Shown here: positions 20,444 through 36,115 of the stretch, in pieces | Position numbering within the stretch: the stretch's first letter is position 1 | How the letters are laid out: every line of letters begins with the position of its first letter | Assembly (NCBI GenBank): GCA_016219645.1 | Contig: JACRLR010000018.1 | Location: forward strand, 186,001 to 250,000 | DNA from: Nitrospirota bacterium | GTDB lineage: Bacteria > Nitrospirota > Nitrospiria > Nitrospirales > Nitrospiraceae | DNA length: 64,000 nt | Direction: 5' to 3' | The notes under the pieces: model-generated | Told to the model about the DNA's origin: nothing | Databases searched by the model: none | The model's input: only the letters and a program-made list of their open reading frames with translations | Program-made: the position numbers and the translations under genes

Positions 20444-20457
20444 CGCAGGTAGGCTGG

Positions 20458-20583
20458 CAGGCTGTTGATAAAGTCCGCCAGCGGCGTTCTCGCTTCGCTC
20501 AGAGGCTCAACGTACCGCAGAGGGTACGCTTCGTCTCTTCGCTTGCTGCGGCCTTGCTGGACGGCCTTTCTGAACAGCCTGCG
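20458..20583. repeat. Repeat family A, copy 3 (inverted orientation)
   Basis: Read on the minus strand it begins GCAGGCTGTTCAGAAAGGCC, continues through the shared CCAGCAAGGCCGCAG segment, then CGAGAACGCCGCTGGCGGAC, and closes with an inverted end. The outer inverted ends are GCAGGCTGTT and AACAGCCTGC. It directly follows the caspase-like gene. Confidence 0.8.
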
Positions 20584-20602
20584 ATTACTTCCGAACAAGT
20601 TT

Positions 20603-20661
20603 GTGAGTATCCGGGCCGTGCGTTTCTGTTATGCTCAAGTAGTTTGTCGACACCCTGCTAG
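20603..20661. repeat. Repeat family D, copy 1
   Basis: About 60 bases, from GTGAGTATCC to the segment GCTCAAGTAGTTTGTC and its end CTGCTAG, match 59924-59983 over their whole length with a dozen or so differences. No coding content. Confidence 0.7.
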
Positions 20662-20780: not shown

Positions 20781-20821
20781 GCCGGCGTAGCTCAGTTGGT
20801 AGAGCAGCGGTTTCGTAAACC
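20781..20821 (+). other. attL of element 1: orphan 5' half of tRNA-Thr
   Basis: These 41 bases are identical to 34402-34442, the first 41 bases of the intact tRNA-Thr(CGU). They run through the anticodon loop (TTTCGTAAACC) and then diverge. The fragment is probably the original chromosomal tRNA 5' end, separated from its 3' half by integration. Confidence 0.85.
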
Positions 20822-21199
20822 CCACTCAGCCACATCCAGAAACCCCAATAAAACGCGGCAAACACCGATGAACAGTGGCGATTCGGTGACAGGGGTGATG
20901 CACCAGGATGCCCCTACATTTCCCTGGTTTGGACAATCATTTCCCTGCATTTTGCCATACACTTTTCGGCTGAAGCATGCCGACGCGGATCCCATCATGC
21001 AGCGCGTCGGCTGTCTAGGTGAAGGCAGAGTAGCAGTGGCTGATAGACCATCCGAACAGGAAGGCGGCAGAGTACACCGAGGATACCGCGCCCTAGGAGC
21101 TAGAGGCATCTTGGGATGGGCTCCTGGAGACATCTCAGGGAGATCTTTGCCTTAAACTAGGGGCACTCATAGGCCGCAAACACTGCGGAGTATAATACT
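20822..21199. other. Non-coding left arm of element 1
   Basis: About 380 bases directly after attL with no convincing gene on either strand. A TATAAT box at 21191-21196 lies too close to the next short frame for a normal leader. The region probably holds integrase/excisionase sites. Confidence 0.45.
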
Positions 21200-21424
21200 A
21201 TGAATTGGAAACGCTTGTTCTGTTCCCATCGGCGACATGGCTCTATGAAGGATTCCTTAACAAGCCCGAGGTGGGCAATCTTTGCCACCTACGGCAGTAT
21301 TTGTACGCAGTTCACTCCTCTAGGCAACGCCTGCATATCCCAGAGACTGTATAAGTTGCTGAAATACTTGGAGGAAAAAATTAACCATGACTTAATCCTT
21401 TATGGCATTCGGGTTGCTGTATAA
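21200..21424 (+). CDS. Hypothetical small protein, doubtful
   Basis: 74 residues starting MNWKRLFCSHRRHG. There is no good ribosome site, and a TATAAT box lies only four bases upstream of the ATG. Composition is unremarkable and no motif is recognised. It lies in the left arm of element 1, before the small-protein/protease pair. It may not be expressed. Confidence 0.25.
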   Translation: MNWKRLFCSHRRHGSMKDSLTSPRWAIFATYGSICTQFTPLGNACISQRLYKLLKYLEEKINHDLILYGIRVAV

Positions 21425-21488
21425 GGAGAGACCCTATTCCGCATAGAAAGGTGGGGGGGGTTGATTATCATTACAAGAGGTAGCTAAT

Positions 21489-21671
21489 ATGCATTCCCCA
21501 ATGGAAGAACAAAACCTACTCAACGCACAGCTCGACGCATTCAAGCAACAGAACCCACGAATTGTGGAGGCCATGCGTGTGCTTCACGTTGACATGGATC
21601 GTTACTTGCGCGCACTCGCTCAATTGAACCCTCCTACCAGCATATCCACAAATACCGCCTCGGGAGGTTAG
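21489..21671 (+). CDS. Small hypothetical protein coupled to an SDH-type protease
   Basis: 60 residues, mainly one long amphipathic helix (EEQNLLNAQLDAFKQQNPRIVEAMRVLHVDMDRYLRALAQL) with a disordered Ser/Thr-rich tail. A purine-rich AAGAGGTAG precedes the ATG. Its stop codon directly abuts the GTG start of the protease gene, so the two are very likely translated together. It could be an inhibitor, substrate or adaptor of that protease. Not recognised as a known family. Confidence 0.6.
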   Translation: MHSPMEEQNLLNAQLDAFKQQNPRIVEAMRVLHVDMDRYLRALAQLNPPTSISTNTASGG

Positions 21672-22673
21672 GTGCAGTCTACCTGGTCCCGAATACTTAG
21701 CGAAATAACAACCCAGTCAAAATTAAATCCCGCCGCGATTGATACCGTTCGTCGTGAAAAAATTACCGCAATTGAGTTGATTACAGCGCGTCCGCTGATC
21801 GTTTACGCGACTGCTTGGACCACTCCTGGGAGGAACGTTCCTCAAGACCTGCTTCAGATCGACTTCTCCGACAAGACCGGTTTTCGAGATGTGACAGAAC
21901 AACTGACAGGAGAGAATCTCGATATCCTTATTCATAGCCCCGGTGGTCTTGCAGAGGCGACACAGGGTATTGTCGATGGCCTGCGGGAAAGATTTTCAAG
22001 TATCCGTTTCATCGTCCCTCACGCGGCAAAGAGTGCGGCTACCATGCTGGCCCTTTCCGGGAATGTCATCCTTATGGATGAAGTCTCCGAATTAGGACCA
22101 ATAGACCCACAAATGCCAATCTTCCAGGGCGGAGGAGTGAAGTATTCGCCCGCTGATGCCATCTTGGGCCAGTTCGAGGACGCATCGAAAGACATTCAGG
22201 AACATCCTGAAAAACTGAGTATCTGGGTTCCCCTTCTCGCGCAAATGGGGCCGTCACTTCTCGTGGAGTGTGCAAATGCTAAGCTGTTATCCCGCACTCT
22301 AGTAAAAGAATGGTTAACAAAATACATGTTCAAGGGAGAGGTAGACGCGGCAGACAATGCTGAGCGCATTTCCTCCTATCTTGCAGATCATAAGAACTTC
22401 CTCTCTCATTCGAAACGGGTCAGCATGACAGAGTTGGTCAATCTCCATTGCAAAGTGGAAGATCTTCGAAACGCGCCCAATCTTCGCAACGCGGTTTGGG
22501 AACTCTATTGTGCGATAGACATTACAATGGCGAACTCAACTGCCTGCAAGATCATTGAAAATTCGTCTGGTCATGCCGTTATTAGAGCTCAACAGGTACA
22601 ACAAATGTTTATGCCAAATCCGTTCGGTATCCAAGCTAGTTTACCGGCTGGACTACCAACCTTTCCTATTTAG
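21672..22673 (+). CDS. Serine dehydrogenase proteinase (SDH_protease, ClpP/SppA-like fold)
   Basis: 333 residues from a GTG. The ClpP-like crotonase fold is shown by ILIHSPGGLAEATQGIVDGLR (HSPGG at 88-92) and PHAAKSAATMLALSGNVILMDEVSELGPIDPQ, in which Ser121 of AKSAATM is the likely nucleophile. The LGPIDPQ segment is a hallmark of the SDH/SppA group. There is no signal peptide or membrane segment, so it should act in the cytosol, unlike SppA. Its AT-richer composition differs from the phage operon to its right and suggests a separately acquired accessory module at the end of element 1. Such proteases occur in mobile and defence-like loci; its target is unknown. Confidence 0.82.
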   Translation: MQSTWSRILSEITTQSKLNPAAIDTVRREKITAIELITARPLIVYATAWTTPGRNVPQDLLQIDFSDKTGFRDVTEQLTGENLDILIHSPGGLAEATQGIVDGLRERFSSIRFIVPHAAKSAATMLALSGNVILMDEVSELGPIDPQMPIFQGGGVKYSPADAILGQFEDASKDIQEHPEKLSIWVPLLAQMGPSLLVECANAKLLSRTLVKEWLTKYMFKGEVDAADNAERISSYLADHKNFLSHSKRVSMTELVNLHCKVEDLRNAPNLRNAVWELYCAIDITMANSTACKIIENSSGHAVIRAQQVQQMFMPNPFGIQASLPAGLPTFPI

Positions 22674-23095
22674 TCCATCTGCAAAGCCGACAAGCCCAGC
22701 TTCAGAGTCTGGGCCTTCTCCCAGGGTCTCGAACGAAGCGCTTCAGCCTCGTAAAGCCTTCACGACCTCGGGATAGCTCAGCCGCTCCAACCCGAACCAT
22801 GGTCCCTTCCCGCACACAACCCGCAGGCATGATCATTGTGAGCACCGGTGCAATGAATGAGGAGATTTATTTTCGATTGACGAGCGATTGACGTTGCCTT
22901 CAGAGACTCACCTGAGTTAAATATCAAATACGTTGACTCGTTAATCCTCGGCGATCCCGTGATGGCGATCCCCGAGGAACGGTCAACCGGTTCCCAGTGC
23001 CCCGTTTCCAACCCAATTAATGGAAGGCCATGAGCGGGATCTTCCCCTAGCAGGGAAGATTCTGGAGTGGGCTTTTAATTGTTGGAGGGTTTGAA
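22674..23095. other. Intergenic control region of element 1
   Basis: About 420 bases between the protease module and the phage-like operon. It contains a small hairpin after the protease gene (CCCAG...CTGGG near 22697), a 56-bp inverted repeat at 22932-22987, and a stem ATCTTCCC/GGGAAGAT near 23040-23060. On the minus strand a 29-codon open piece ending at about 22732 (LERLSYPEVVKALRG) could be the last remnant of a lost gene. Confidence 0.5.
22932..22987. promoter_or_regulatory. Nested inverted repeat, possible operator or origin element
   Basis: GTTGAC (22932) pairs with GTCAAC (22982), and inside it CCTCGG (22946) pairs with CCGAGG (22972); the core carries GATC twice. It lies about 110 bases before the first gene of the phage-like operon, where a phage control region is expected. 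Confidence 0.5.
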
Positions 23096-23287
23096 ATGGC
23101 GGCCATTCCATATAAGGACCGGATCAAGCAGTTCTCGCTTCCCCTCGATCGCGATCACAAAACAATCCTCGATCGCTTGCACCAGAAGTCCGGTTTGTCG
23201 CGCGCGAAAGTCATCAGACGACTGTTGCTGCGCGAAGACCAAGCCTTGCCCCATGAAAAAACCCTGGCGACGAGGGAGGGCCGATGA
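23096..23287 (+). CDS. Small ribbon-helix-helix-type DNA-binding protein
   Basis: 63 residues. The pattern IKQFSLPLDRDHKTILDRLHQKSGLSRAKVIRRLLLRED is a beta strand followed by two helices, as in CopG/Arc-type regulators. A GGAGGG ribosome site precedes the ATG. It is the first gene of the tightly packed operon and overlaps the next gene by four bases. It probably regulates element 1 expression. Confidence 0.6.
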   Translation: MAAIPYKDRIKQFSLPLDRDHKTILDRLHQKSGLSRAKVIRRLLLREDQALPHEKTLATREGR

Positions 23288-23559
23288 AACGTCTGCCCGC
23301 CCAGGCCTCTGGCTCGCCTGCCCACCAGCGAAGCGGCCAGATCCTCTATGTGAGCGCCGCCGCCGTCTTGCTCGCTTGTAGCGAAAAAGCGATTCGCGCG
23401 AAGGTGGCGAGACAGTTGCTCCCCCATCGACGACTCGGTGGGCGCGTCATCTTTCTGCGGAATGAGCTTGAAACATTCCTCAGTGAGTTGCCTGGCACCT
23501 CGGTGGCCGAGGCGCAAGCGAATCTGGCGCTGCGATCTGGCGAGGAGGGGCCCCGATGA
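23284..23559 (+). CDS. Excisionase-like helix-turn-helix protein
   Basis: 91 residues. YVSAAAVLLACSEKAIRAKVARQLLPHRRLGGRVIFLRNELETFLSEL has the layout of the winged-helix MerR/Xis domain used by excisionases (HTH, then a wing ending in R-V-x-F-x-R-x-E-L). It overlaps both neighbours by four bases. It likely acts with the integrase at the other end of the element in directing excision. Confidence 0.65.
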   Translation: MKRLPAQASGSPAHQRSGQILYVSAAAVLLACSEKAIRAKVARQLLPHRRLGGRVIFLRNELETFLSELPGTSVAEAQANLALRSGEEGPR

Positions 23560-23759
23560 CCATGACGGGTCCTAGCCCATCATTGGCGACGCTCGATGAT
23601 CCAGCGCTCTTGCAATTATTACTGCGCCAGGATCTGCCGCCATTCTTAACGACCATGTATGCCAGCGAAGCGGATCGACGGATGGCTGCGCACGATCAGC
23701 CCGCGGTTCCGGGCATGATGACATTGAACCTTCCGTTCGGCCAAGGAGACGGTCAATGA
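23556..23759 (+). CDS. Hypothetical small protein of element 1
   Basis: 67 residues, starting MTMTGPSPSLATLDDPALLQLLLRQDLPPFLTTMYASEADRR. Pro- and Leu-rich, no membrane segment, no recognised motif. It overlaps both neighbours by four bases (ATGA), so it is translated as part of the operon, which is the main reason to accept it. Confidence 0.5.
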   Translation: MTMTGPSPSLATLDDPALLQLLLRQDLPPFLTTMYASEADRRMAAHDQPAVPGMMTLNLPFGQGDGQ

Positions 23760-24004
23760 ACAAGCAACGATACCGGAGGCCACCGAATTGTCCCTCATGG
23801 GTCCAGACTTCGCCAACGAAGGGTCCTGGGGTCATGATTCACGCGAAGAAGGCGCTCGCTTGGGGAGAGGGTCGCTCGTTAGAGGAAACCGCGCTCGCGA
23901 TGCGGCAGATCTACCATGCCTTACTGGCTGGCGATTTTGAGGCAGTTGCGCAGTATCCATTCGTCGTCACCAGCATCACCGAAACCGACAACTCAGGGGG
24001 TTGA
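23756..24004 (+). CDS. Hypothetical small protein of element 1
   Basis: 82 residues. Basic N-terminal third, then a helix-rich part (SLEETALAMRQIYHALLAGDFEAVAQYP). No known motif. Its start overlaps the preceding stop by four bases and its stop lies two bases before the replication-protein ATG. Confidence 0.5.
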   Translation: MNKQRYRRPPNCPSWVQTSPTKGPGVMIHAKKALAWGEGRSLEETALAMRQIYHALLAGDFEAVAQYPFVVTSITETDNSGG

Positions 24005-24006
24005 CG

Positions 24007-25008
24007 ATGTCACGGTATCGAAAAATTGATGTACGCATGTATGGGGATGAAGCATTCCGTGCCCTCTCCCCACCAGCGCCGTGCGGGCAATCGGTATTCG
24101 TGTATCTGCTCACTGGCCCTCATACGACGAACATTCCGGGCCTTTTCTCCGCTGGTGAAGCCGGTCTCGCTGAAGCGCTCGGCTGGCCGTTGAAAGGCTT
24201 TCGCGAAGCCTTTGCCGAAGCCTGCCGAAAGCCTCTCGTAAAGGCTGATTGGCACGCGCGTCTGTGCTGGGTGCCGAACGCCATTAAATTCAACAAGCCT
24301 GAATCACCGAACGTCGTCCTCAGTTGGCGCGTCACCTGGGATGAGCTGCCGGAATGCGATCTTAAATACGAAGCGTATCAACAGCTTAAAGCCTTCCTGG
24401 AAGGCATGGGCAAAGCCTTCGCCGAAGCCTTCGAGGAAGCCTGCCGAAAGCCTTTACGAAAGCCTTCGCTAAAGGCTATGGCGAATCAAGAGCAGGATCA
24501 GGATCAGGAGCAGGAGCAGGAACAGGAACAAGATATTTCCCGCGAAGTTTCGAATTCGCGGGCGGTTGCGGTTGAAGGGGTCAGTGCTGAGACTTGGAAG
24601 GCCTATGCATCAGCCTACCGAGATCGCTATGGAGCCGATCCCGTCCGGAATCGGCAGGTCAATAGTCAGCTGAAGAAATTGGTTGAGCTACTCGGCGAGG
24701 ATGAAGCGCCACCGGTCGCGGCGTTCTACTTGAGCTGCCATGACCAGCGGTATGTCATGGGACGGCATCCCGCGAATCTCTTACTGCTGAATGCCACAGG
24801 ACTCAGAACGCAGTGGTTCACCGGCATCAAGGCTACTCGGGGCGAAGCGCAGAGTGCAGAAAAGAAACAGGGTATGGACGAATTGTTCAAGCGGATTCGG
24901 GCTGAGCGGTCGCCAGACCCGATCGATGTCACGCCACCGCCACCCACAGCGATTGAGCAAGCCGACAACGAACCCCTTTGTGAACCGGGGGGAAGGATGG
25001 CGCTGTGA
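24007..25008 (+). CDS. Phage-type replication/initiator protein
   Basis: 333 residues from the ATG at 24007 (TTG at 24001 is less likely). The N-terminal 130 residues (MSRYRKIDVRMYGDEAFRALS onward, then LCWVPNAIKFNKPESPNVVLSW) resemble the winged-helix domain of phage and plasmid replication initiators (RepO/DnaD-like). A repetitive linker rich in EAFAEACRKPL and a Gln/Glu/Asp run follow, then a helical C-terminal domain (SAETWKAYASAYRDRYGADPVRNRQVNSQLKKLVELLG). The DNA of the linker forms direct repeats (separate entry), as in lambda gene O, where the origin lies within the initiator gene. Role assigned by layout, not by a decisive motif. Confidence 0.6.
   Translation: MSRYRKIDVRMYGDEAFRALSPPAPCGQSVFVYLLTGPHTTNIPGLFSAGEAGLAEALGWPLKGFREAFAEACRKPLVKADWHARLCWVPNAIKFNKPESPNVVLSWRVTWDELPECDLKYEAYQQLKAFLEGMGKAFAEAFEEACRKPLRKPSLKAMANQEQDQDQEQEQEQEQDISREVSNSRAVAVEGVSAETWKAYASAYRDRYGADPVRNRQVNSQLKKLVELLGEDEAPPVAAFYLSCHDQRYVMGRHPANLLLLNATGLRTQWFTGIKATRGEAQSAEKKQGMDELFKRIRAERSPDPIDVTPPPPTAIEQADNEPLCEPGGRMAL
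24193..24477. repeat. Iteron-like repeats inside the replication gene
   Basis: Two clusters (24193-24246 and 24387-24477) repeat variants of the 8-10 base unit GAAGCCTTYG/GAAAGCCTTT, with inverted copies AAAGGCTTTCG and TAAAGGCT at cluster edges. A related stretch, CTGCCGAAAGCCT, occurs in both clusters. The arrangement resembles an initiator-bound origin within the initiator gene. Confidence 0.5.
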
Positions 25009-25090
25009 GCAAGGAATGAGGGTCCGGGGACGAAGGGACGAAGGTACCATGTTTTAGCCTAACTCTCTCTAGATGCTCTCATGAGAGAGT

Positions 25091-25552
25091 TTGAGAAATT
25101 ATCGTACCTCAGTCCCTTTCGTACCCGAAAAGGGAGGGAAAGGATGGGGGGCACAAAAGTCTCGATCTGGCTTTGAGGCGGTTTTGGCCGCTTTCAAAGG
25201 GCAATTTGAGAGAGCACCAGATAGCCAAACCGGTGCTCTGGCGAAGGATATCACACGGTTACGAGCGGTTTTCGCGGGGTGTATGGCATTCAAACGGGAA
25301 ATGACAGCCGAATCTCATTGGGAAGTTCTCGTACCGATAACAACCAAATTCCTACACGGTCTTATCAGGAGCGGCACAGGGAATCGAGATCTTGGTCAGG
25401 GAATGAGTCGCGACGGCAGGGCAAATCCCCTCCAAGAAGCGATCTGGCTGGCGCGGTATGCGATCGAAAGCCTCAAGATGATGTCGGCAGCGATTTGCGA
25501 CCTAAGTAGCAATACCGAGGCAATCTGGACGAATCAGGAGAGAGCAGTATGA
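25091..25552 (+). CDS. Hypothetical protein of element 1
   Basis: 153 residues from a TTG; the start is uncertain, as no ATG is in frame upstream of residue 65. Mostly helical with a basic N-terminus (KSRSGFEAVLAAFKGQFERAPD) and a C-terminal helix (LQEAIWLARYAIESLKMMSAAIC). An inverted repeat AACTCTCT...AGAGAGTT overlaps the presumed start, possibly an operator or attenuator. It overlaps the next gene by four bases. No family recognised. Confidence 0.5.
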   Translation: MRNYRTSVPFVPEKGGKGWGAQKSRSGFEAVLAAFKGQFERAPDSQTGALAKDITRLRAVFAGCMAFKREMTAESHWEVLVPITTKFLHGLIRSGTGNRDLGQGMSRDGRANPLQEAIWLARYAIESLKMMSAAICDLSSNTEAIWTNQERAV

Positions 25553-25998
25553 GCGCCAAAGTCGGCCAACGCAGCCTGAAGCCCACCGAGATGTCCCGGC
25601 GCTATACGGCGCAGTTTCTGGAGGATATGGATGGCCGAAGCCTGATTGCCCGAGCCTTGCGGGGTCAATTGCGAGAACTCACGAACGATCTCGGCGGCAT
25701 CGCGCAGCTCTCCTATCAAGAGCGGTCTTTGGCCAAGCGAGTCGTCCATCTCCAGCGGTTGATCGAGCAAAAGGAGCGGGCGCTCATGCAGGGCGATCCG
25801 GTGGATCAAACTTCCTATTTCAGCGCCGTCACTCTGCTGAGCAGCCTGCTTTCCAAACTCGGCCTGAAGCGGCGAGCGAAGCAGCTGCCTTCATTGACTG
25901 AATATCTCAACGGCAAGGCATCGAGCCCTCACGCCGAGCCGACACCGACCATCATTGACAACCATTCATTAACCTCACACCAAGGAGATCCATCATGA
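25549..25998 (+). CDS. Hypothetical phage protein upstream of terminase
   Basis: 149 residues, highly helical and basic. The segment SYFSAVTLLSSLLSKLGLKRRAKQLPSLTEYL (start of a helical bundle followed by a short strand) resembles small proteins that precede terminase genes in phages. A small-terminase role is possible but not shown: no clear HTH is visible. It overlaps both neighbours by four bases. Confidence 0.5.
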   Translation: MSAKVGQRSLKPTEMSRRYTAQFLEDMDGRSLIARALRGQLRELTNDLGGIAQLSYQERSLAKRVVHLQRLIEQKERALMQGDPVDQTSYFSAVTLLSSLLSKLGLKRRAKQLPSLTEYLNGKASSPHAEPTPTIIDNHSLTSHQGDPS

Positions 25999-26735
25999 AA
26001 CAGGCACTAGCAGCGACCAAAACGCTCGTCAATACGCTTCGACATCACAAGGAGCAGCCCCTTCGAAGCCTGAGCGGCGATGCGCTTGAACGCTGGCTGG
26101 CCATCGTGGCCAACCTGCTCGAAAAGCTCACGGCGATGGCCAAGGAAATAGACAGTATCGATGCCGATCCGAAGCTCACCGACCGAGGCAAGCAGGACAA
26201 GCTGCTGGCTCTTGGCCCGAAAGCGGTCGGCAATGTCCAGAACCTCGGCAACGCCAGAACTCAAGCGGCTGAGGTCGTCGTTCGGCTGGAGCAGCTGATT
26301 TTCTCCTTGCTCACGAGCAAGCCTGCGGGCGATGTAGTGGTGACCTTCCTTCGAGAAGATGCAATCCGGCGAGGGACGCCCAAGGAACAGGCAGCGATGG
26401 TCTGGCTTGAGGCGATCAATCGCGGCGATCTGGAGACCGCGCGGGCCTTGCTGGATTGGCCAGGCTCGCCAGTGATCCCCGATGACATCCTACGACGGGG
26501 AAAAGAGAGTTACGCGCTGCGAGTCAATCCGGTCGCTTGGGAACAGCTCCAATATGTGAACACGCTGAAGGACAACCTCTCCTCCATCGCTCAACAGTTC
26601 GCCAGCTGGTTGCTCCTGCTCGGAGCCTCGCCAGAATCGGTGACACAAGCGACCGGTGTGGCTGTGCCGCCGTCCGCGAAGGTCATGCAGATGGACGAGT
26701 ATCTCAAAAAGGTCAGCACCGCCACGGCGAAATAG
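25995..26735 (+). CDS. Hypothetical helical phage protein
   Basis: 246 residues. Long helices throughout (LERWLAIVANLLEKLTAMAKEIDSIDADPKL; ARTQAAEVVVRLEQLIFSLLTSK). An Ala/Leu-rich middle and a segment PKEQAAMVWLEAINRGDLETARALLDWP recall helical-repeat modules. No signal or membrane span. Position before terminase suggests packaging or replication, but nothing specific is seen. Confidence 0.5.
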   Translation: MKQALAATKTLVNTLRHHKEQPLRSLSGDALERWLAIVANLLEKLTAMAKEIDSIDADPKLTDRGKQDKLLALGPKAVGNVQNLGNARTQAAEVVVRLEQLIFSLLTSKPAGDVVVTFLREDAIRRGTPKEQAAMVWLEAINRGDLETARALLDWPGSPVIPDDILRRGKESYALRVNPVAWEQLQYVNTLKDNLSSIAQQFASWLLLLGASPESVTQATGVAVPPSAKVMQMDEYLKKVSTATAK

Positions 26736-26744
26736 GAGGCAGCC

Positions 26745-27008
26745 ATGGGAATGAGTGAGGAACAAAAGGCCGCGTACCTGAAGGAGTGCCAGGCAGAGAA
26801 TGAAGCGATGCTCGATCGCATCTTCCTGAAAGTTTTCGGGCGGACCTGGCGTCTAGATGAAGCGGATCTGGAACGGGCGGCACATCTGGCCACCCTCCCG
26901 CATGGCGAACAGAACGGGGATAGCTCGCGGCATCCGCCGGACTCGTTGCAGAAAATCAAGGCGGACTTTCCCGACCTGTTTGGCACGGGCAAGACGGAGA
27001 ACCCGTGA
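26745..27008 (+). CDS. Hypothetical small protein before the large terminase
   Basis: 87 residues, acidic, with an N-terminal helix (MSEEQKAAYLKECQAENEAMLDRIFLKVFG). Good ribosome site AGGAGGCAGCC. It overlaps the terminase start by four bases. Its size and position would suit a small terminase subunit, but no DNA-binding motif is visible. Confidence 0.5.
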   Translation: MGMSEEQKAAYLKECQAENEAMLDRIFLKVFGRTWRLDEADLERAAHLATLPHGEQNGDSSRHPPDSLQKIKADFPDLFGTGKTENP

Positions 27009-28459
27009 ATATCATCCAAGCGATCGAAGACCAGGCCTTGTTCCGGCCATTATTTCGCAGCCTGGATACCTGGCGCATGTGGATGGTCGTGCTCAAGGCA
27101 ATCTTTGCCCTGGAGATGACCGAGGCAGAGCGCGTCCAGTTCACGGCGCTGACGGGTCGACACTCTCCTCCGGCTCAACAGGTCGAGGAATGCTGGTTGG
27201 TGATTGGCCGACGAGGCGGAAAAAGCTTCACTGTCGCCTTGATCGCCGTGTTCCTCGCCTGCTTCAAAGACTACACGGCCTGCTTGGGTCCGGGCGAACG
27301 CGGGGTCCTCATGATCATCGCCACCGATCGGAAGCAAGCCCGGGTCATCATGCGGTACATCCTCGCCCTGATCGAACACGTCCCGATGCTCAAGGCCATG
27401 GTGCTCCGCCAGGATGCCGAAAGCCTCGACCTGGACAATAGGATCTCGATTGAAATTACGACCGGGAGCCATCGCACCACCCGAGGCTACACCGTGATTG
27501 GGGCGCTGTGTGATGAAATCAGTTTTTGGAGAAGTGAGGACACAGCCAATCCTGCGGAAGAAATCTTAGCCGCTTTGCGTCCGGCCATGAGTACGATTCC
27601 AGGCGCGCTCTTGATTGGACTGGGCACGCCCTATAAGCGGAGCGGCCCGCTCTACGACGCTTATAAGCGACACCACGGGCACGAGGATTCGCCGGTCCTG
27701 GTCATTCAGGCCCCGACCCGGATCATGAATCCGTCGGTCCCGCAGAGCGTCATTGATCGAGCCTTTGAGCAGGATCCGATCAATGCGAGTGCGGAATATC
27801 TGGCTGAATTTCGATCCGATGTCGGCAGCTTCCTCGATCTGGACCTGATCGAACGCAGCATTGAAGTGGGTCGCCGGGAACGGGCTCCGCAACCAGATCT
27901 TCAATATGTCGCCTTTTGTGATCCGTCAGGTGGGGCTCGCGATGCATTCACACTCGCCATCGCCCATCGACAACGCTATCCGGCCCCGCGCAGTCGTCGA
28001 GAGGAAGAAGATCAACAACGACAGCCGCCTCGCGTCGTGTTGGATCTCTGCCGGGGTATTAGCCCGCCGTTTTCACCCGAGCAGGTCGTCAAGGAGTTTG
28101 CCGACGTGTTGCGGTCCTATCGCTGTCACACGGTGGTTGGCGACAAATACGCGATGGAATGGACGCGGTCGTCGTTCGAGAGAAACGGGATTCAGTACAA
28201 GCACAGCGAGCTGACGAAATCAGAATTGTACCTGGAGAGTTTGCCGTTGTTTGCCCAAGGCAGCGTGGATTTGCTCGATGTGAAACAGTTGAGCACGCAA
28301 CTCCTGGGGCTGGAACGGCGCACCGGCCGCTCTGGCAAAGACTCGGTGGATCATGCGCCAGGCGCACACGATGATTTTGCGAATACCTGCTGCGGTGCCC
28401 TGAGTTTGTGTGTGCAGCACCAGGCGACCATCCGCATCGTACCATTGGTCGGTCTCTAA
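27005..28459 (+). CDS. Phage large terminase subunit (TerL)
   Basis: 484 residues. The ATPase domain has a Walker A variant GRRGGKS (residues 68-74), a likely coupling segment TTGSHRTTRGYT and Walker B ALCDE (167-171). The nuclease domain begins YVAFCDPSGGARDAFT with the first metal-binding Asp, continues with HTVVGDKYAMEW and ends with the acidic motif DHAPGAHDDFAN, so a complete RNase H-type nuclease appears present. TerL cuts and pumps DNA into procapsids. The gene looks intact although no portal or capsid gene follows, so packaging would depend on another phage's particle or the element is decaying. Confidence 0.82.
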   Translation: MNIIQAIEDQALFRPLFRSLDTWRMWMVVLKAIFALEMTEAERVQFTALTGRHSPPAQQVEECWLVIGRRGGKSFTVALIAVFLACFKDYTACLGPGERGVLMIIATDRKQARVIMRYILALIEHVPMLKAMVLRQDAESLDLDNRISIEITTGSHRTTRGYTVIGALCDEISFWRSEDTANPAEEILAALRPAMSTIPGALLIGLGTPYKRSGPLYDAYKRHHGHEDSPVLVIQAPTRIMNPSVPQSVIDRAFEQDPINASAEYLAEFRSDVGSFLDLDLIERSIEVGRRERAPQPDLQYVAFCDPSGGARDAFTLAIAHRQRYPAPRSRREEEDQQRQPPRVVLDLCRGISPPFSPEQVVKEFADVLRSYRCHTVVGDKYAMEWTRSSFERNGIQYKHSELTKSELYLESLPLFAQGSVDLLDVKQLSTQLLGLERRTGRSGKDSVDHAPGAHDDFANTCCGALSLCVQHQATIRIVPLVGL

Positions 28460-28483
28460 GACATCATCACAGGGAGGTCTGTT

Positions 28484-29089
28484 ATGCCGAATCATCTGAC
28501 CCGCCTCACCGTCATTCCGAATCTGCTCGTGGAGCATGGTCGCATTGATCGCTCGATGCAGGACCGCGAGACCATTGCCGATGCCATGCGCGCACACGGC
28601 TGGACACCAGATCAGATCCACGCCCGCGTCTGTATCGACGGCAAGCTGATTCCACAGGCGCAATGGGAATACGCGATTCCTGCGCGTGGTTCCTCGATTG
28701 TGATCCGTCGCGTCCCGATGGGCGGGGGAGGGGGCGGCGGCAAGAACACCGGTATGATGATCGGGATGATTGCGGTGATGGCGCTCGCGCTCGCGGCCCC
28801 CTATGCTGCCCCACTCGTGGCCGGAACCCTGTTCGGCATGGTGACGAGCAGCGTGATTACTGCGACCAGCATTGCCCTGTCTGCCGGTGTCGGCATCGGC
28901 GGCATGCTCGCCCTACGGGCCTTGATTCCTCCGCCGTTGCCTCGACTCACCCGGGAGATTCCAGATGAAAAGTCCCTTCCAATATCAGTTTCAGCCCGAC
29001 GGCTCCATCACCCTCGCGGGATTGCCAGGCGTGCAGCTCGAATTGGTCGAAGAACAAGGCCGAGTGACCGGTCGCAATTGGCAAGATGA
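28484..29089 (+). CDS. Truncated tail-tip (host-specificity J-like) protein
   Basis: 201 residues. The sequence up to about residue 165 matches the start of phage tail-hub proteins: an N-terminal ubiquitin-like part, the turn RRVPMGGGGGGGKN, then a hydrophobic Ala/Gly-rich double helix and LIPPPLPRL. The J-type proteins normally continue for many hundreds of residues. Here the last 40 residues are Arg-rich and overlap the next gene by 125 bases, so the gene has lost its body. Compatible with decay or with a minimal form kept by a satellite. Confidence 0.6.
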   Translation: MPNHLTRLTVIPNLLVEHGRIDRSMQDRETIADAMRAHGWTPDQIHARVCIDGKLIPQAQWEYAIPARGSSIVIRRVPMGGGGGGGKNTGMMIGMIAVMALALAAPYAAPLVAGTLFGMVTSSVITATSIALSAGVGIGGMLALRALIPPPLPRLTREIPDEKSLPISVSARRLHHPRGIARRAARIGRRTRPSDRSQLAR

Positions 29090-29591
29090 ACTCAGGCTGC
29101 CGACCTATCAAGAAGAATGGGAGGCGATGGCGCAGGTGCGCGGGATGAGTGGGCGTCATGTGCGCTTCCTCTGCATGGATCAGTCTGAGAGTCGTCTCCC
29201 TGGTCATCCGCGACTGAACCCCAAGACTGTCGTGCTGCCCGAGCACGGGTGTCCGTTCGAATTGGGCCATACGGGCTTCGTCATTGGAACCGTGTATGCG
29301 TTCATCACAGGGTTCGACGACCTCAGGACAGAGATCCCCTCGCTGTTTGGCTTCGCACTGCCCTTCGAACCTGAAGGCGACTTCATTATCGGTCAAGCGG
29401 TGTTGTTTGATTCAGATTTGGCCAATGCGTCATGGGAGGGCTTGCAGAAGGAAATCTTGACGCATGTCTGCCCGATGACCTGGCGGGCCGATGCGGAGGG
29501 GGCTGAACACCTCGTGCAAGTGACGCTGACTCCTGGCGACTATCCCGGCTGTCCGAATTCGCAGATCTTGGCCATGTGGGAGGCGGCATGA
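28965..29591 (+). CDS. Hypothetical protein of element 1
   Basis: 208 residues, acidic, beta-rich with no membrane span. Notable pieces are FQPDGSITLAGLPGVQLELVEEQG, and near the end LVQVTLTPGDYPGCPNSQILAMW. The start overlaps the J-like remnant by 125 bases. It overlaps the next small gene by four bases. It may include the C-terminal remains of a tail protein, but no match is recognised. Confidence 0.5.
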   Translation: MKSPFQYQFQPDGSITLAGLPGVQLELVEEQGRVTGRNWQDELRLPTYQEEWEAMAQVRGMSGRHVRFLCMDQSESRLPGHPRLNPKTVVLPEHGCPFELGHTGFVIGTVYAFITGFDDLRTEIPSLFGFALPFEPEGDFIIGQAVLFDSDLANASWEGLQKEILTHVCPMTWRADAEGAEHLVQVTLTPGDYPGCPNSQILAMWEAA

Positions 29592-29728
29592 ACTGTCTGA
29601 ATTGTCGCGCAGGCCGACTGACGCTCGAAGATCCCAGGCGGGCGCTATGGACATGTCCCGTCTGCCATCAATGCTTCGGCATGTTCAAGGACGAAAAACC
29701 TAACCCGCCTGAGGTGCCGAAAGCATGA
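29588..29728 (+). CDS. Small zinc-ribbon protein
   Basis: 46 residues: CLNC near the start and CPVCHQC further on give four to five Cys arranged as a zinc ribbon. It overlaps both neighbours (ATGA at each end), which supports translation. Probably a small DNA- or protein-binding zinc protein of the phage-like operon. Confidence 0.6.
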   Translation: MNCLNCRAGRLTLEDPRRALWTCPVCHQCFGMFKDEKPNPPEVPKA

Positions 29729-30045
29729 CCCCGACTGCTCGCAGCCTGCAACATCTCAAGGCCTTGGGCTACGCCGCTCGTGTGGTCGAGAAGTGGAATC
29801 CCTTCGCGAAGATTCGGCAAGACTTGTTCGGGGCCGACCTGTTGGCGCTCAAAGCGGGTCAGCCGGTGCTCGCGATTCAATGTACCAGCGGCAGCAATCA
29901 TGCTGCTCGACGAGTCAAGCTTGAAGCGGAAGGGTTCGTCGCCCTCTGGAAAGCATCCGGCGCGGCCCTCGAAGTCTGGTCCTGGTCGAAACAGGGTCCA
30001 CGCGGGAAGCGGAAAACATGGACACTTCGACGGGAGGCCGTGTGA
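29725..30045 (+). CDS. Putative PD-(D/E)XK-type nuclease
   Basis: 106 residues. The layout RSLQHLKALGYAARVVEKWNPFAKIRQDLFGADLLALKAGQPVLAIQCTSG matches a restriction-endonuclease-fold core: FGADLLAL supplies the Asp, and LAIQCT takes the place of the usual (E/Q)xK strand. A basic tail follows. Small nucleases of this type (VRR-NUC or resolvase-like) are common in phages. The catalytic pattern is only partly canonical, so activity is uncertain. Confidence 0.5.
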   Translation: MTPTARSLQHLKALGYAARVVEKWNPFAKIRQDLFGADLLALKAGQPVLAIQCTSGSNHAARRVKLEAEGFVALWKASGAALEVWSWSKQGPRGKRKTWTLRREAV

Positions 30046-30146
30046 CCACGAGACAGATTCTCCATCAGTTGTGGAAACGGTGGGGCCATGTTAGGAATGT
30101 GATCGTGGGCCAAGGACGGCACCTCAAGCGAGAGGTGCTGACATGA
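30042..30146 (+). CDS. Very small basic protein
   Basis: 34 residues from a GTG, very basic (HQLWKRWGHVRNVIVGQGRHLKREVL). Accepted only because it fills the gap exactly and overlaps both neighbours by four bases. May merely be a coupling frame. Confidence 0.35.
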   Translation: MTTRQILHQLWKRWGHVRNVIVGQGRHLKREVLT

Positions 30147-30514
30147 CCACCCGCCAGCGCTTGCCCGCTCGTCGCAAATCCAGTACCCAAAAGATCAAGG
30201 TCGGCAATCGGCGCACCTTATACCTGAGCACCGATGGGACCCCTCCATCGGAGTTGTTTCTCAGGGTCAGAGGGACCGATACGTCGGCGGAGGTCACGGC
30301 CTTGTACGATTGTCTCGCCCGATTGGTCTCGATTGCCCTGCAATACGGCGCACCGTTGGAGATGGTCGGAAGATTGCTCCAAGGTGTCAAGGTCGAACCG
30401 GCCGGGATCGTCGTCGGCCATCCCAGTATCCACTTCTGTTCGAGTCTGCCGGATGCGATTGGCCAGCATTTGCTGCATCTGGGCCAGGACCTGCCCTCGA
30501 CACCCCAAGAATAA
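30143..30514 (+). CDS. TSCPD-domain-like protein
   Basis: 123 residues. The stretch from RTLYLSTDGTPPSELFLRV through ALYDCLARLVSIALQYGAPLEMVGRLLQGVKVEP resembles the C-terminal TSCPD domain of B12-dependent ribonucleotide reductases, also found as free-standing proteins in phages. No reductase catalytic domain is present. It may act in nucleotide metabolism or as a regulator; function is not known. Confidence 0.55.
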   Translation: MTTRQRLPARRKSSTQKIKVGNRRTLYLSTDGTPPSELFLRVRGTDTSAEVTALYDCLARLVSIALQYGAPLEMVGRLLQGVKVEPAGIVVGHPSIHFCSSLPDAIGQHLLHLGQDLPSTPQE

Positions 30515-30527
30515 GGACGCGATCCAA

Positions 30528-30617
30528 ATGCTCAATCCAAGCCCACAGTTTGCCTTACCGCCCGGATACCGCGCTCCCAGAGAGGGTTTTGTGCCCATCA
30601 CCACAACCAATAAATAA
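30528..30617 (+). CDS. Very small hypothetical protein
   Basis: 29 residues, Pro-rich (NPSPQFALPPGYRAPREGF). It lies in the 116-base gap between two larger genes. The frame is clean, but support is otherwise weak. Confidence 0.3.
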   Translation: MLNPSPQFALPPGYRAPREGFVPITTTNK

Positions 30618-30630
30618 AAGGAGACGCATC

Positions 30631-31272
30631 ATGGATATGAATACGCAGATCGCCAAACCGAGAACGAGCACGAGGACGACCAGCGCCCGTCGCGATGTGC
30701 CGGAAGCCCAGTTGCAGGAGTGGGCGCGCCGCGGGACAGAGAAATGGCGGGAGACCGTCGCCACGATCATCGCCTTCGGGCAGTTCTTGATTGAAGCGAA
30801 GGCGGCGGCCGGGCACGGGAATTTCAGTCGGCTATTCAAAGACCACGCCAAGCCGGTCGATCCCCCCATGCCGATCACGCAGCGTACTGCTGAGAAGTTG
30901 ATGAGCATCGCCGAGAATCCCGTACTTTCAAATCCGGCCAATTGGTCGAATTTGTCGAACGCCTTGAGCACCCTCGACACATTGGACCATCTCCCGCAGG
31001 AGGATCTTCAGCGGATGATCGGAGAAGGCAAAATATCACCAGAGTTGACCCAAGACGAGGCCCACATGCTCCTCTACTGTGGAACCGTCAAGGCCCAGGC
31101 GGCGCAGGCGGCCCTCGCGAAGGTGAAGGCCTACCAGAAGAAATTGGCGCGTCGTGCGGTCGCCGAATGCCTCTGTCAGTGCGTCCGCTGCGGCAGCGTT
31201 CACTCAGACCAGCGGCTGCTATCTCAAACTCAACAAGGGTCCAGCCATGAAAATGACGGCAAAGGCGATTGA
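30631..31272 (+). CDS. DUF3102-like protein
   Basis: 213 residues from the ATG at 30631, which has AAAAGGAGACGC upstream; longer open frames upstream overlap the TSCPD-like gene and are not credible. The core LQEWARRGTEKWRETVATIIAFGQFLIEAKAAAGHGNFSRLFKDH matches the DUF3102 pattern found in phages and plasmids (possible relation to partition or DNA-binding proteins). The C-terminus has closely spaced Cys (CLCQCVRCGS). It marks the end of one transcription unit. Confidence 0.6.
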   Translation: MDMNTQIAKPRTSTRTTSARRDVPEAQLQEWARRGTEKWRETVATIIAFGQFLIEAKAAAGHGNFSRLFKDHAKPVDPPMPITQRTAEKLMSIAENPVLSNPANWSNLSNALSTLDTLDHLPQEDLQRMIGEGKISPELTQDEAHMLLYCGTVKAQAAQAALAKVKAYQKKLARRAVAECLCQCVRCGSVHSDQRLLSQTQQGSSHENDGKGD

Positions 31273-31317
31273 TTGTATGGGGGCAGGGGGGGTGCCGTTC
31301 TACTAGTAAAGCACACG

Positions 31318-31347
31318 TTGCCAGGCATCCTAGTTCTGCTCTAGAAT
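31318..31347 (+). promoter_or_regulatory. Predicted promoter flanked by CTACTAG repeats
   Basis: TTGCCA (31318-31323) and TAGAAT (31342-31347) with an 18-base spacer, about 45 bases before a small RHH-like gene. CTACTAG occurs at 31300-31306 and again at 31349-31355, on either side of the promoter, suggesting an operator bound by that small protein. Confidence 0.55.
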
Positions 31348-31394
31348 ACTACTAGGTCACATTCTGTAAGGATATCCATTGGAAGGAGCGCCCC

Positions 31395-31550
31395 ATGAAA
31401 ATGATTACCGTGCCGGTCGAAGACAAGACCAAACGCGAGCTGGATCGGCTTCGCAAGGAAGGATGGTCCATTAACCACTTCACCCGCCTGGCTCTCACCA
31501 AAGCCTTACGGGCGCATCGACGGGAGCTGCGGGAAGCGAAGGCCGAATGA
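31395..31550 (+). CDS. Small ribbon-helix-helix-like protein
   Basis: 51 residues: MKMITVPVEDKTKRELDRLRKEGWSINHFTRLALTKALRAHRR shows a beta strand and two helices as in RHH regulators. Preceded by GGAAGGAGCG. It is closely similar to the C-terminal 48 residues of the next protein (MKMLTVPVEDSLKRELDKLRQ), so a duplication occurred here. It overlaps the HNH gene by four bases. It may control the promoter just upstream. Confidence 0.6.
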   Translation: MKMITVPVEDKTKRELDRLRKEGWSINHFTRLALTKALRAHRRELREAKAE

Positions 31551-32047
31551 AGCACCCTTCCTTGCCGGACCGGTTCTGGTCCAAGGTCGCGAAGGGACCA
31601 CCCGAGGACTGCTGGCTATGGATGGGGGCTAGGTTGCTCACCGGATACGGGGTCTTCAGTCTGGGCGGATCAGATGGGGCTCATCGCGTCGCCTGGATGC
31701 TGACCCACGGACCGATCCCTCCTGGTCGGCATATCTGCCATCACTGCGATAACCCGCCCTGCTGCAATCCCGCTCATCTCTTTTGCGGCACGCACCTGGA
31801 CAATATGCGCGACAGAGATCGAAAAGGGCGAGGCAATCACTATCACCCGCCTCGCAGCGGCACCGGACCGGGCCATCAACTGTCTCCGAAGGGAGCCACC
31901 ATGAAGATGTTGACGGTTCCGGTGGAGGATTCGCTAAAGCGCGAGCTGGATAAGCTTCGCCAAGAAGGCTACACGCTCAATGGCTGGGTGCGGGCGACGC
32001 TGGCCAAGGCACTGAAAGCGCGTAAGCAGCAGTCCGCGACGAAGTAA
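31547..32047 (+). CDS. HNH endonuclease, in frame with a C-terminal RHH-like domain
   Basis: 166 residues. Residues 1-105 are a phage-type HNH protein: CWLWMGARLLTGYGVFSLGG, AHRVAWMLTHGPIPPG, then CHHCDNPPCCNPAHLFCGTHLDNM with the zinc Cys and catalytic His. From residue 119 (MKMLTVPVEDSLKRELDKLRQ) an RHH-like domain follows in the same frame. The ATG at 31901 has GAAGGGAGCC upstream, so the second domain could also be made as a separate 48-residue protein. HNH proteins next to terminase genes often assist packaging. Confidence 0.7.
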   Translation: MKHPSLPDRFWSKVAKGPPEDCWLWMGARLLTGYGVFSLGGSDGAHRVAWMLTHGPIPPGRHICHHCDNPPCCNPAHLFCGTHLDNMRDRDRKGRGNHYHPPRSGTGPGHQLSPKGATMKMLTVPVEDSLKRELDKLRQEGYTLNGWVRATLAKALKARKQQSATK

Positions 32048-32072
32048 CCCCACCCAACAAGCGGAGGACATC

Positions 32073-32297
32073 ATGAGCATCAACTATGTGGCGATCAGAC
32101 TGAGTGGGCAGACGATCACCGGTCAGACAGAGACCTTCTATGACGCCGCCTTGGAGCTGCGCAAGATGCTCCGAGACCCGTTCTATAATCGACCAGACAG
32201 CCCGATCAAGACAATCTTCCTGAGCGACGAAACCACTCTGAGCGAATACCTGCCCTCTGAGATCGAGAACCCGGCGAACTGGCAGGAAGGCCGCTGA
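32073..32297 (+). CDS. Hypothetical small protein of element 1
   Basis: 74 residues (MSINYVAIRLSGQTITGQTETFYDAALELRKML onward). GGAGGACATC precedes the ATG. Mixed alpha/beta, acidic C-terminus. No family recognised. Confidence 0.5.
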   Translation: MSINYVAIRLSGQTITGQTETFYDAALELRKMLRDPFYNRPDSPIKTIFLSDETTLSEYLPSEIENPANWQEGR

Positions 32298-32298
32298 A

Positions 32299-32604
32299 AT
32301 GAAACGAACGCCCGTGAGAGTCCGCTTCTATGAACTGAGTCGCGACGGCACGGCGACGGTCGGGGATCTCTATATCGATGACCAGGGCCGATTGATTGCT
32401 GATCCGCCCGATCGCCGAGCCTTGGCGCGCTTGATCACCGAACCATTCCAGTTATGGCACCCACAGAAAGGCGACCTAGGGACCATCTTGCCGAGGGAGC
32501 ATCCGGAGGAGTTTTTGAAGGCCTGTGTGCGCGAGATTCGTGGCACGTACTTTTGGTGCAAGCAACTCCCCGAGTCCACCGGGACCATCATTCAGAGCCG
32601 CTGA
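32299..32604 (+). CDS. Hypothetical protein of element 1
   Basis: 101 residues with a plausible beta-rich first half (VRVRFYELSRDGTATVGDLYIDDQGRLIADPPDRRALARLI) and a C-terminal EFLKACVREIRGTYFWC. One base separates it from the preceding stop and its own stop overlaps the RadC start (ATGA). Probably part of a three-gene unit ending in RadC. Not recognised. Confidence 0.5.
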   Translation: MKRTPVRVRFYELSRDGTATVGDLYIDDQGRLIADPPDRRALARLITEPFQLWHPQKGDLGTILPREHPEEFLKACVREIRGTYFWCKQLPESTGTIIQSR

Positions 32605-33047
32605 TGAGTTACCGAATCCCGATGTATAAAATTTCAATGATCCGCGATGGGAGCGTGTGCGCCGAACGAAAGGCGATCATGAGTTCCAGGGATGTGCTCC
32701 CGATCTTGCGCGAATACTTCGAGCACCATGACCGAGAGGAAATGTTGTGCCTGCTGCTGGACGCGAAACACAAGCTCACGGGACTCCACACGATCAGCAT
32801 TGGGTCGTTGTCCTCCGCGATCGTCCATCCCCGCGAAACCTTCAAGTGCGCCATCATCAGCAATTGCGCCGCCATTATTCTCGCGCACAATCACCCCTCC
32901 GGCGATCCCACGCCCAGCCAGGAGGATCATGCCTTGACGAAGCGATTGAAGGACGGCGGGGATATCTTGGGTATTCCGGTGCTCGATCACCTCGTGATCG
33001 GCGAGAACGGGCGCTATGTGAGCTTCGCCGAAACCGGACAGCTATAA
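32604..33047 (+). CDS. radC: RadC-like JAB-domain protein
   Basis: 147 residues from the ATG overlapping the previous stop. It has the JAMM metalloprotease signature HNHPSGDPTPSQED near residues 93-106 and the usual preceding segment GSLSSAIVHPRETFKCAI. It lacks the N-terminal helix-hairpin-helix domain of chromosomal RadC and so is the short, mobile-element form. Short RadC proteins are typical neighbours of integrases and islands; despite the name, a DNA-repair role is not established. A second copy lies in element 2 at 36116. Confidence 0.85.
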   Translation: MSYRIPMYKISMIRDGSVCAERKAIMSSRDVLPILREYFEHHDREEMLCLLLDAKHKLTGLHTISIGSLSSAIVHPRETFKCAIISNCAAIILAHNHPSGDPTPSQEDHALTKRLKDGGDILGIPVLDHLVIGENGRYVSFAETGQL

Positions 33048-33060
33048 CAAGGAGGGCATC

Positions 33061-33246
33061 ATGGTGACGATTTCCATTCAGTGGCAGCGTCTTGATACCC
33101 GTCGATTCACAGGCGGGCAGATCAAGCGGTTTCGATATGACTCACCGGTAGCGGCTGCGGCAGCCATTCAGCGCTTCACCTCAGTGAGCTGGTGCCGACT
33201 CCTCAGCATGCGGGAAGTGAAAGGAGCGAGATATGAGACGCGGTGA
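33061..33246 (+). CDS. Hypothetical small protein before integrase 1
   Basis: 61 residues, basic (MVTISIQWQRLDTRRFTGGQIKRFRYDSPVAAAAAIQRFTSVSW onward). AAGGAGGGCATC precedes the ATG. It overlaps the start of the integrase gene by 14 bases. Could be an excision-control factor by position only. Confidence 0.45.
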   Translation: MVTISIQWQRLDTRRFTGGQIKRFRYDSPVAAAAAIQRFTSVSWCRLLSMREVKGARYETR

Positions 33247-34381
33247 CGGACTCATCCTCAAAGGGAAAAGCTGGTATTTGGAAGCTCGCATCGGCGGGAA
33301 GCGCTATCAAAAACGGCTGGGCAAGGGCATCACCAGAAAAATCGCTTTGGAATTGGCGCAAGTCGTGCGCGGCCAGATTCTCAAAGGCGAACTCGGGATC
33401 GGCGGAAAGAAGAAAAAGGACCTGAGCTTCAGCGAGGCCCGGAAGCGATTCGAGGACTGGATGCACAGCGACAAGAAGCCGAACACCATCCGCAGCTATG
33501 CCGCCTGCCTCCGTGCGCTGGAGAAAACCTTCGGCGGCCAGCGGTTGGGCCAGATCAGCACATGGCAGGTCGAAGCCTATCGGCAGAAACGGTCGAAGGG
33601 CGCGGCCCTGACGGAGCGACCCGACGATCTGAGCGACATCGAATGGAATCGGCGCTGCCAGCTCGCGCAGCGCGGCGCACCAATTCGAGTCAATCGAGAG
33701 TTGGCGGTCCTCAAAATGTTATTCAATCGATGCCGGGATTGGAACTTGTACGAGGGAGAAAATCCGGTCAGCAAGGTCAAGTTCCGCAAGGAGCCTCGGC
33801 GGCGGCTCCGGTTTCTGGAAGCCGAGGAAACGGACCGGCTGCTCGCCGCATGTGCTGAGCCTTTGAAGACCTTGGTGTTGGTCGGTATCAACTGCGGACT
33901 GAGAATTCACGCCGAGGCCTTGACGCTTCGGTGGGAGAATGTCGATTTGAAGCGCGCGACCCTCAGCGTCGAAAGTGCCTATGCGAAAAATCATCGCAGT
34001 CGATCCATTCCATTGAACTCCACGGTCAAGGCCGCGCTCGCCAATCTCCAGAAGACCGCTAAGAGCGACCTCGTCTTCGCCCAAGCCGATGGGCTGCCCT
34101 TTCGGTCGATCAAGACCGCCTTCGCGACGGCCTGCCGGAAGGCCAAGATCACTGACTGCACGCCGCACACTTTGCGACATACTTTCTGTTCGCGGCTGGT
34201 CATGTCGGGGGCAGATTTGCGAACGGTGCAGGAGTTGGGCGGCTGGCAGACCATTGGGATGGTCGAGCGCTATAGCCATCTCAGCCAGGCCCACAAGGCC
34301 GAGGCGGTCGAGCGGATTGGGGTAGAATTTCCCTATGGGATGCCATACCCTACGGACGAGGCGCTTGCAGTTGTGTCGTAA
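33233..34381 (+). CDS. int: Tyrosine integrase of element 1
   Basis: 382 residues. An N-terminal arm-binding domain (KGKSWYLEARIGGKRYQKRLGKGITRKIAL) and a core-binding domain (FEDWMHSDKKPNTIRSYAACLRALE) precede the catalytic domain. Catalytic residues are visible: Arg224 (GLRIHAEAL), His312 and Arg315 (HTLRHTF), Trp338 in the second-His position, and nucleophile Tyr347 (VERYSHLS). The gene ends 20 bases before the tRNA-Thr gene and points into it, as expected for an integrase next to its attachment site. Confidence 0.93.
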   Translation: MRRGDGLILKGKSWYLEARIGGKRYQKRLGKGITRKIALELAQVVRGQILKGELGIGGKKKKDLSFSEARKRFEDWMHSDKKPNTIRSYAACLRALEKTFGGQRLGQISTWQVEAYRQKRSKGAALTERPDDLSDIEWNRRCQLAQRGAPIRVNRELAVLKMLFNRCRDWNLYEGENPVSKVKFRKEPRRRLRFLEAEETDRLLAACAEPLKTLVLVGINCGLRIHAEALTLRWENVDLKRATLSVESAYAKNHRSRSIPLNSTVKAALANLQKTAKSDLVFAQADGLPFRSIKTAFATACRKAKITDCTPHTLRHTFCSRLVMSGADLRTVQELGGWQTIGMVERYSHLSQAHKAEAVERIGVEFPYGMPYPTDEALAVVS

Positions 34382-34401
34382 CCGTGTGATATTACGGGCA
34401 A

Positions 34402-34477
34402 GCCGGCGTAGCTCAGTTGGTAGAGCAGCGGTTTCGTAAACCGCAGGTCGTCCGTTCAATCCGGATCGCCGGCTCCA
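34402..34477 (+). tRNA. tRNA-Thr (CGT), restored at the junction of two elements
   Basis: Complete cloverleaf: acceptor GCCGGCG/CGCCGGC, D-arm GCTC/GAGC, anticodon stem GCGGT/ACCGC with anticodon CGT, T-arm GTCCG-TTCAATC-CGGAT, encoded CCA. Its 5' half (to 34442) is duplicated at 20781 and its 3' half (from 34433) at 54196, so it is flanked on both sides by an integrated element, and both integrases end close to it. Confidence 0.96.
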
Positions 34478-34482
34478 GTTTT

Positions 34483-35553: not shown

Positions 35554-35557
35554 TCGT

Positions 35558-35857
35558 TCACTCCTTTCCAGTGGGACTCGGTGTTATGGTTTCCCCGTGG
35601 CCGGGAGTATAGACGTCGCGCTTCGCTCTCGCAATCACTCTGTCCAGGTCGGAGTGGTCCACCCTCCGGGTGCCTATCTGGGGAGGTACGGACGTTTGCG
35701 TAGAAAAAGAGGACAGCCAGCGATCGATGTCCTGTTGATCAAACCGTACTAGTCCATGAATCTTCCGGCAGGGAATCTTGCCGTGCGCGGCCCAGAGATA
35801 GAGCGTGGACGGTTTGATGTTGAGCCGTGCTGAGAGGTCTTTTACCGTTAAGAGCAT
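35558..35857 (-). CDS. Helix-turn-helix excisionase-like protein of element 2
   Basis: 99 residues. LLTVKDLSARLNIKPSTLYLWAAHGKIPCRKIHGLVRFDQQDIDRWLSSF is a textbook MerR/AlpA-type HTH as used by excisionases. The C-terminus is disordered. It lies four bases upstream of the integrase gene on the same strand and is likely co-transcribed. Probably the recombination directionality factor or regulator. Confidence 0.8.
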   Translation of the reverse strand: MLLTVKDLSARLNIKPSTLYLWAAHGKIPCRKIHGLVRFDQQDIDRWLSSFSTQTSVPPQIGTRRVDHSDLDRVIARAKRDVYTPGHGETITPSPTGKE

Positions 35858-36115
35858 CGGTTACGATAGGAAGGGGGAGTCTGACGACGCCCCCTCACCT
35901 CCCCCCTGACATGGTGTGTCCGCGTGATCGCCGGCGTCGGATTCGGACCGCACTCCCAGTGGGTGCGAGCCGGCACCGCAGAGCAGCGGCCAGGCCTTCC
36001 GGGTGCCACTTCAGGCCTGTCCCCCGCGAAGGTGCCATCCCGCCTGCTTCTTCGACGCCCCACCCCTGTGCTGTGAAGGGTGGGGCTAGACATCGTGATA
36101 AAGAAAGAGGCGGAC

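Follow-up and report, generated by a model that had tools for sequence, protein, structure and literature searches.

The window analysed here, a 64,000-nucleotide stretch of a Nitrospirota genome (assembly GCA_016219645.1, contig JACRLR010000018.1, positions 186,001 to 250,000), carries a 13.6 kb insertion, element 1, at window positions 20781–34442. Element 1 is probably an intact phage satellite that supplies its own terminase and takes its coat and portal from a helper phage. It resides in a 3.65-Mb Nitrospira-like genome (G000:C18), and its limits are those drawn by a first-pass annotation of the window. A perfect 41-bp direct repeat flanks it (20781–20821 and 34402–34442), derived from the 5' half of tRNA-Thr(CGT); the left copy is the left attachment repeat, and the right copy opens the intact tRNA-Thr(CGT) gene at 34402–34477. 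Eleven congeners share the upstream gene, and in them it leads into tRNA-Thr sequence free of any insertion; the complete tRNA-Thr sequence is seen at 7 of these 11 sites. Because the congeners hold this empty site, element 1 is a genuine insertion. All features of element 1 described below, like the repeat and the tRNA gene, lie on the plus strand.

The large subunit of the terminase, TerL, is encoded at 27005–28459 (phrog_2, 5e-24), with the motifs of both its ATPase and its nuclease intact: Walker A GRRGGKS, Walker B LCDE, and the nuclease acidic residues D306, D380 and D456/457, which are unchanged across a ten-row alignment. Judged from its substitution pattern, TerL is evolving under purifying selection, with a dN/dS of 0.09–0.16, where dS is high in distant pairs and 0.47 in the closest pair. 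In pairs with unsaturated dS, dN/dS is 0.09–0.41. In the tree, the window TerL groups with other Nitrospirota TerLs of loci of this kind in a clade of nine (support 100/99). A search of PDB sequences with the TerL profile gave no match.

All 23 main open reading frames of element 1 are open, and nine gene junctions are 4-nt stop/start overlaps (ATGA, GTGA or TTGA), in agreement with the tight operon of clean genes described at first pass. The replication, regulation and integration genes and the complete TerL named there were likewise borne out, Pfam and PHROGs matches being obtained for a ribbon-helix-helix protein, a helix-turn-helix (HTH) protein, a DnaD-like loader, TerL, an HNH endonuclease, a RadC protein and an integrase. 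Among the element 1 proteins the same scans recognised neither a portal nor a major capsid protein nor a lysis protein, and no head and tail gene set is hidden among those without a profile match, the largest of which has about 246 amino acids. The first-pass annotation had also denied the element a protease, and here it needs correction, since an accessory SDH-type serine protease of the ClpP fold is encoded at 21672–22673 (PF01972, 2e-16; phrog_11747, 5e-63). Its likeness to head maturation proteases is weak (E 4e-4 or worse), so that it is at most a putative capsid protease, and none of the sister elements carries a relative of it.

The same architecture recurs in other bacteria. TerL homologues are present in 21 of the 236 genomes of the order, at 41 loci of a species-representative collection that extends from Nitrospira to Methylobacterium, Bradyrhizobium and Acidobacteria, and in four IMG/VR contigs. 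When 45 TerL-locus neighbourhoods were clustered, the only widely shared families were TerL itself, the family of the small gene g10 (41 loci) and the integrase (27 loci), and no portal or capsid family clustered with TerL across these loci. At least 14 complete units bounded by tRNA-derived direct repeats were delimited in Nitrospirota, Proteobacteria and Acidobacteriota: seven in Nitrospirota, the window included, of 11.6–14.7 kb, and seven elsewhere, of 10.1–15.4 kb. They occupy tRNA-Thr, Ser, Arg, Lys, Leu, Met, Glu, Ala and Val genes. The genes of these relatives are simple open reading frame calls made in this analysis, not curated annotation. Far from being full prophages, the relatives are as compact as element 1, tRNA-bounded and intact; they share its core, and no portal was found in them. 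This comparison, together with the selection acting on TerL, gives good support to the satellite proposed at first pass, whose DNA would be packaged into the particle of a helper.

The search for portal genes was extended to the carriers of these units. No PF04860 portal was found within the units in a search of 36 carrier genomes or records, the nearest ones lying about 23 and about 37 kb away, beyond the integrase-bounded unit. PF05133 was negative in 23 genomes in which the controls matched. Of the 236 genomes of the order, 13 have PF04860 and 5 have PF05136, and among the 21 that bear TerL a single genome (G112) has one or the other. A PHROG tally of 84 proteins encoded downstream of TerL in the relatives lists 25 of 114 families; for the alphaproteobacterial relatives the absence of a portal is read from PF04860 and, in some units, from gene sizes, not from this tally. 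Since portal genes are nearly absent from the carrier genomes, an integrated helper must be rare, and we infer that the helper is probably one or more virulent phages. IMG/VR searches with two further element 1 proteins, the tail-assembly-protein-I-like (TAPI-like) protein and that of the adjoining gene g15, retrieved no viral contig, and hence no helper was found in that way. On a 56.6-kb IMG/VR contig (G236; L096–L098) a TerL-type unit and portal and capsid genes occupy opposite ends, possibly a satellite and its helper within one strain.

Three other explanations of element 1 were weighed. It is quite unlikely to be an anti-phage island in which the small and large terminase subunits, TerS and TerL, are kept to compete with the motor of an invading phage and not for transfer. 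Interference with phages is common among satellites, being established for SaPI, P4 and PLE, and selection does maintain TerL, but the integrase and the tRNA repeats are kept as well, and the diversity of integration sites shows that the elements move; moreover, TerL retains both its nuclease and its ATPase sites, and PADLOC detected no defence protein among the ten element proteins submitted to it.

A decayed prophage, from which head and tail genes were lost by internal deletion so that TerL was left beside a piece of a tail hub, is very unlikely. It is true that TerL belongs to phages and that the TAPI-like gene (28484–29089), taken at first pass for a truncated tail hub, matches part of the J profile, at positions 116–230 only. 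A complete stand-alone TAPI-like gene is probably the better reading, as its homologues indicate. Lambda_tail_I (PF06805) was matched by all three homologues tested, below threshold (13.0–16.7 bits against a gathering score of 23.8) and at the same model end each time, and in G145, G167 and other genomes the elements contain homologues whose stand-alone length is similar, with g15 after them and often a tape-measure gene alongside. The last approximately 40 codons of the TAPI-like gene overlap g15 (28965–29591; no assigned function) out of frame, an arrangement that does not appear disabling. A full prophage relative was not found, and the TerL matches among INPHARED phages are distant only, at 22–28% over about half of the protein. 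Recurrence of the same compact build in many complete elements at unrelated tRNA sites, open reading frames and the low dN/dS of TerL together argue against a deletion remnant. Finally, that element 1 is a tiny but complete phage whose portal and capsid proteins escaped recognition is the least probable of the three and very unlikely, for although several open reading frames lack a profile match, all of them are too small to encode a portal, and the only widely shared families are TerS-like, TerL and integrase.

To return to the satellite, its TerS is likely to be g10 (25549–25998), whose family mostly lies directly upstream of TerL. The AlphaFold model of g10 (mean pLDDT 81) aligns with the HK97 small terminase over 81 residues (Z 7.2, rmsd 2.9), with a higher coverage than most other rows at comparable Z; no PHROG family was consistently supported in a search with the g10 profile. 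The next gene, g11 (25995–26735), encodes an all-helical protein conserved in Nitrospirota elements, with homologues beside TerS and TerL in several of them, and is possibly a capsid-interacting or packaging accessory factor. Foldseek gave no significant match for g11 in PDB or among viral models, and its VIA Z scores of up to 12.3 are no higher than is usual among helical bundles; its fold is therefore not taken to indicate a function. In the G077 element (L092/L093) g10 and g11 are kept beside a different TerL, and since its similarity is concentrated in the C-terminal nuclease half, a replacement of TerL is suggested there.

The life cycle of such a satellite can be outlined as follows. The tyrosine integrase (33233–34381; PF00589, 5e-32), which has counterparts of 44–57% identity in the sister elements, would place element 1 in the tRNA-Thr gene, and upon the activity of a helper phage it would excise the element together with the HTH_17/AlpA-like regulator or excisionase (23284–23559; PF12728), homologues of which occur in four sister elements. 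The DnaD-like replication or helicase-loader protein (24001–25008; phrog_1701, 1e-16) would initiate replication, and a two-subunit terminase, composed of g10 as TerS and of TerL, would pack the element DNA into procapsids made of helper coat and helper portal. The TAPI-like protein and g15 may target the helper tail tip. Several points weigh against this interpretation. Neither induction nor a circular form, virion DNA or a helper has come to light. In two sister-element TerLs (L006, L007) GRRAGGS replaces the Walker A motif, the remainder being conserved. The assignment of g10 as TerS is drawn from gene position and a weak fold match, whose score is tied with those of unrelated helical rows. 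Portal families other than PF04860 and PF05136 were partly covered, and the search with PF06074 (Mu-type) gave no match, its controls being silent too.

In PMC13376191 satellites are defined as integrative elements of about 7–20 kb with integrase, regulation and replication genes and no virion structural set, and the general gene content of element 1 corresponds to this description: 13.6 kb, an integrase, an HTH regulator, a DnaD-like gene, and neither portal nor capsid. It differs from each of the known groups in turn. The cfPICIs, which are also integrative and also possess large and small terminase subunits and an HNH gene, encode coat, protease, portal and connectors (PMC10690885), whereas element 1 has neither coat nor portal. 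The PICIs, including SaPIs, resemble it in size, attachment repeats and small regulators, and some have a TerS of their own (PMC10690885); prototypical PICIs, however, depend on the TerL of the helper and bring at most TerS, while element 1 brings TerL. P4-like satellites share its size, an AlpA-like factor and the absence of capsid genes, but P4 relies on the terminase of P2 for packaging and possesses the capsid-size protein Sid (PMC10690885). The helper terminase acts there through a cos site, whereas element 1 has a TerL of its own; no Sid was detected in element 1 by the general Pfam and PHROG scans, in which no dedicated Sid model was included. The Pseudomonas satellite AH14b, which has been studied experimentally and is packaged in helper capsids, is likewise capsid-less; it has an AlpA-like gene and also a homologue of tail assembly protein I, beyond which no packaging or structural genes were reported (PMC4936722), in contrast to the TerL of element 1. 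PICMI, another small satellite without capsid genes, uses a virulent phage as its helper and has no identifiable packaging genes (PMC10803314), again unlike element 1. Virus Rctr16k (KX853514) has integrase-like and replication genes and a terminase 27.5% identical to half of the window TerL, but it is a partial record with a tail gene and is not known as a satellite. A complete Caudoviricetes prophage would have a portal, a major capsid protein and a tail set, a combination that the Pfam and PHROGs scans did not find in element 1. Because it possesses its own TerL yet no coat or portal, element 1 stands outside the definitions of PICI, cfPICI, P4 and PICMI.

The relatives include variants that carry single virion modules. 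In G124 and G145, more distant TerLs (29–42%) lie directly upstream of an HK97-type coat gene within integrase units of 8–9 kb, in which no portal was recognised. The genome of the window has a separate unit of 8–9 kb (L090, G000 C15, 5505–13337) with Nu1-like TerS proteins, an HK97-type coat and a serine recombinase, and neither TerL nor a portal was found in it. A tail-tip set of tape-measure, TAPI and g15 genes is found in compact elements of G028, G068, G101 and G167, that of G167 lacking TerL, and in G170 another TerL is accompanied by a head-maturation-protease-like gene. Modules seem to be exchanged among these elements. There is an even chance, in our judgement, that they form a satellite class spanning several phyla, equipped with a full packaging motor of its own and trading single virion modules, the virions of which would be chimeras built around a helper portal: most members have TerS and TerL only, related units in G124 and G145 add just a coat, some carry the tail-tip set, and in no unit searched was a portal found. 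Such a portal-borrowing strategy is not described for PICI, cfPICI, P4, PLE or PICMI in the literature searched, nor did that literature, which left out subscription papers such as those on VEIME and tycheposons, describe TerL-bearing satellites without a capsid, or any satellite family in Nitrospirota or Alphaproteobacteria. Known satellites either borrow the helper TerL, as PICI and P4 do, or come with an entire head, as cfPICI does; elements with a motor but neither portal nor shell would bridge the gap, and they would raise the question of how a foreign TerL docks on a helper portal, in which motor–portal specificity is testable. The phages of nitrifiers are little known, and this TerL together with the g10 family provides a marker for finding satellites in Nitrospirota, Alphaproteobacteria and nitrifiers.

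The remaining genes of element 1 are small or accessory. A ribbon-helix-helix regulator (23096–23287; PF01402) has a homologue in the G145 element, and g12 (26745–27008), small and with no assigned function, a homologous stretch in that of G167. The small conserved protein g17 (29725–30045) is 67–76% identical to its counterparts in the G145, G148 and G170 elements, with a dN/dS of about 0.1–0.2. Further downstream lie a TSCPD-domain protein, regarded as cargo (30143–30514; PF12637, 1e-10), the HNH endonuclease (31547–32047; PF13392, 5e-15) and a RadC-like JAB protein (32604–33047; PF04002, 9e-43).

A second island lies in tandem at the same tRNA-Thr gene (window 34443–54241), and a further copy of the 3' half of the tRNA is found at 54196. 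The island encodes an integrase of its own on the minus strand (34483–35553) and, as judged by reading, cation-efflux/CzcA-like and ABC-transporter genes; past it, a decayed integrase copy at 54343–54559 matches 35017–35233 at 78%. On the other side of element 1, at 20455–20661, there is a dispersed repeat of about 130–200 bp, very many copies of which, approximately 80–94% identical, are found in Nitrospira genomes, with several in G000 and a related stretch at 59902–59974.

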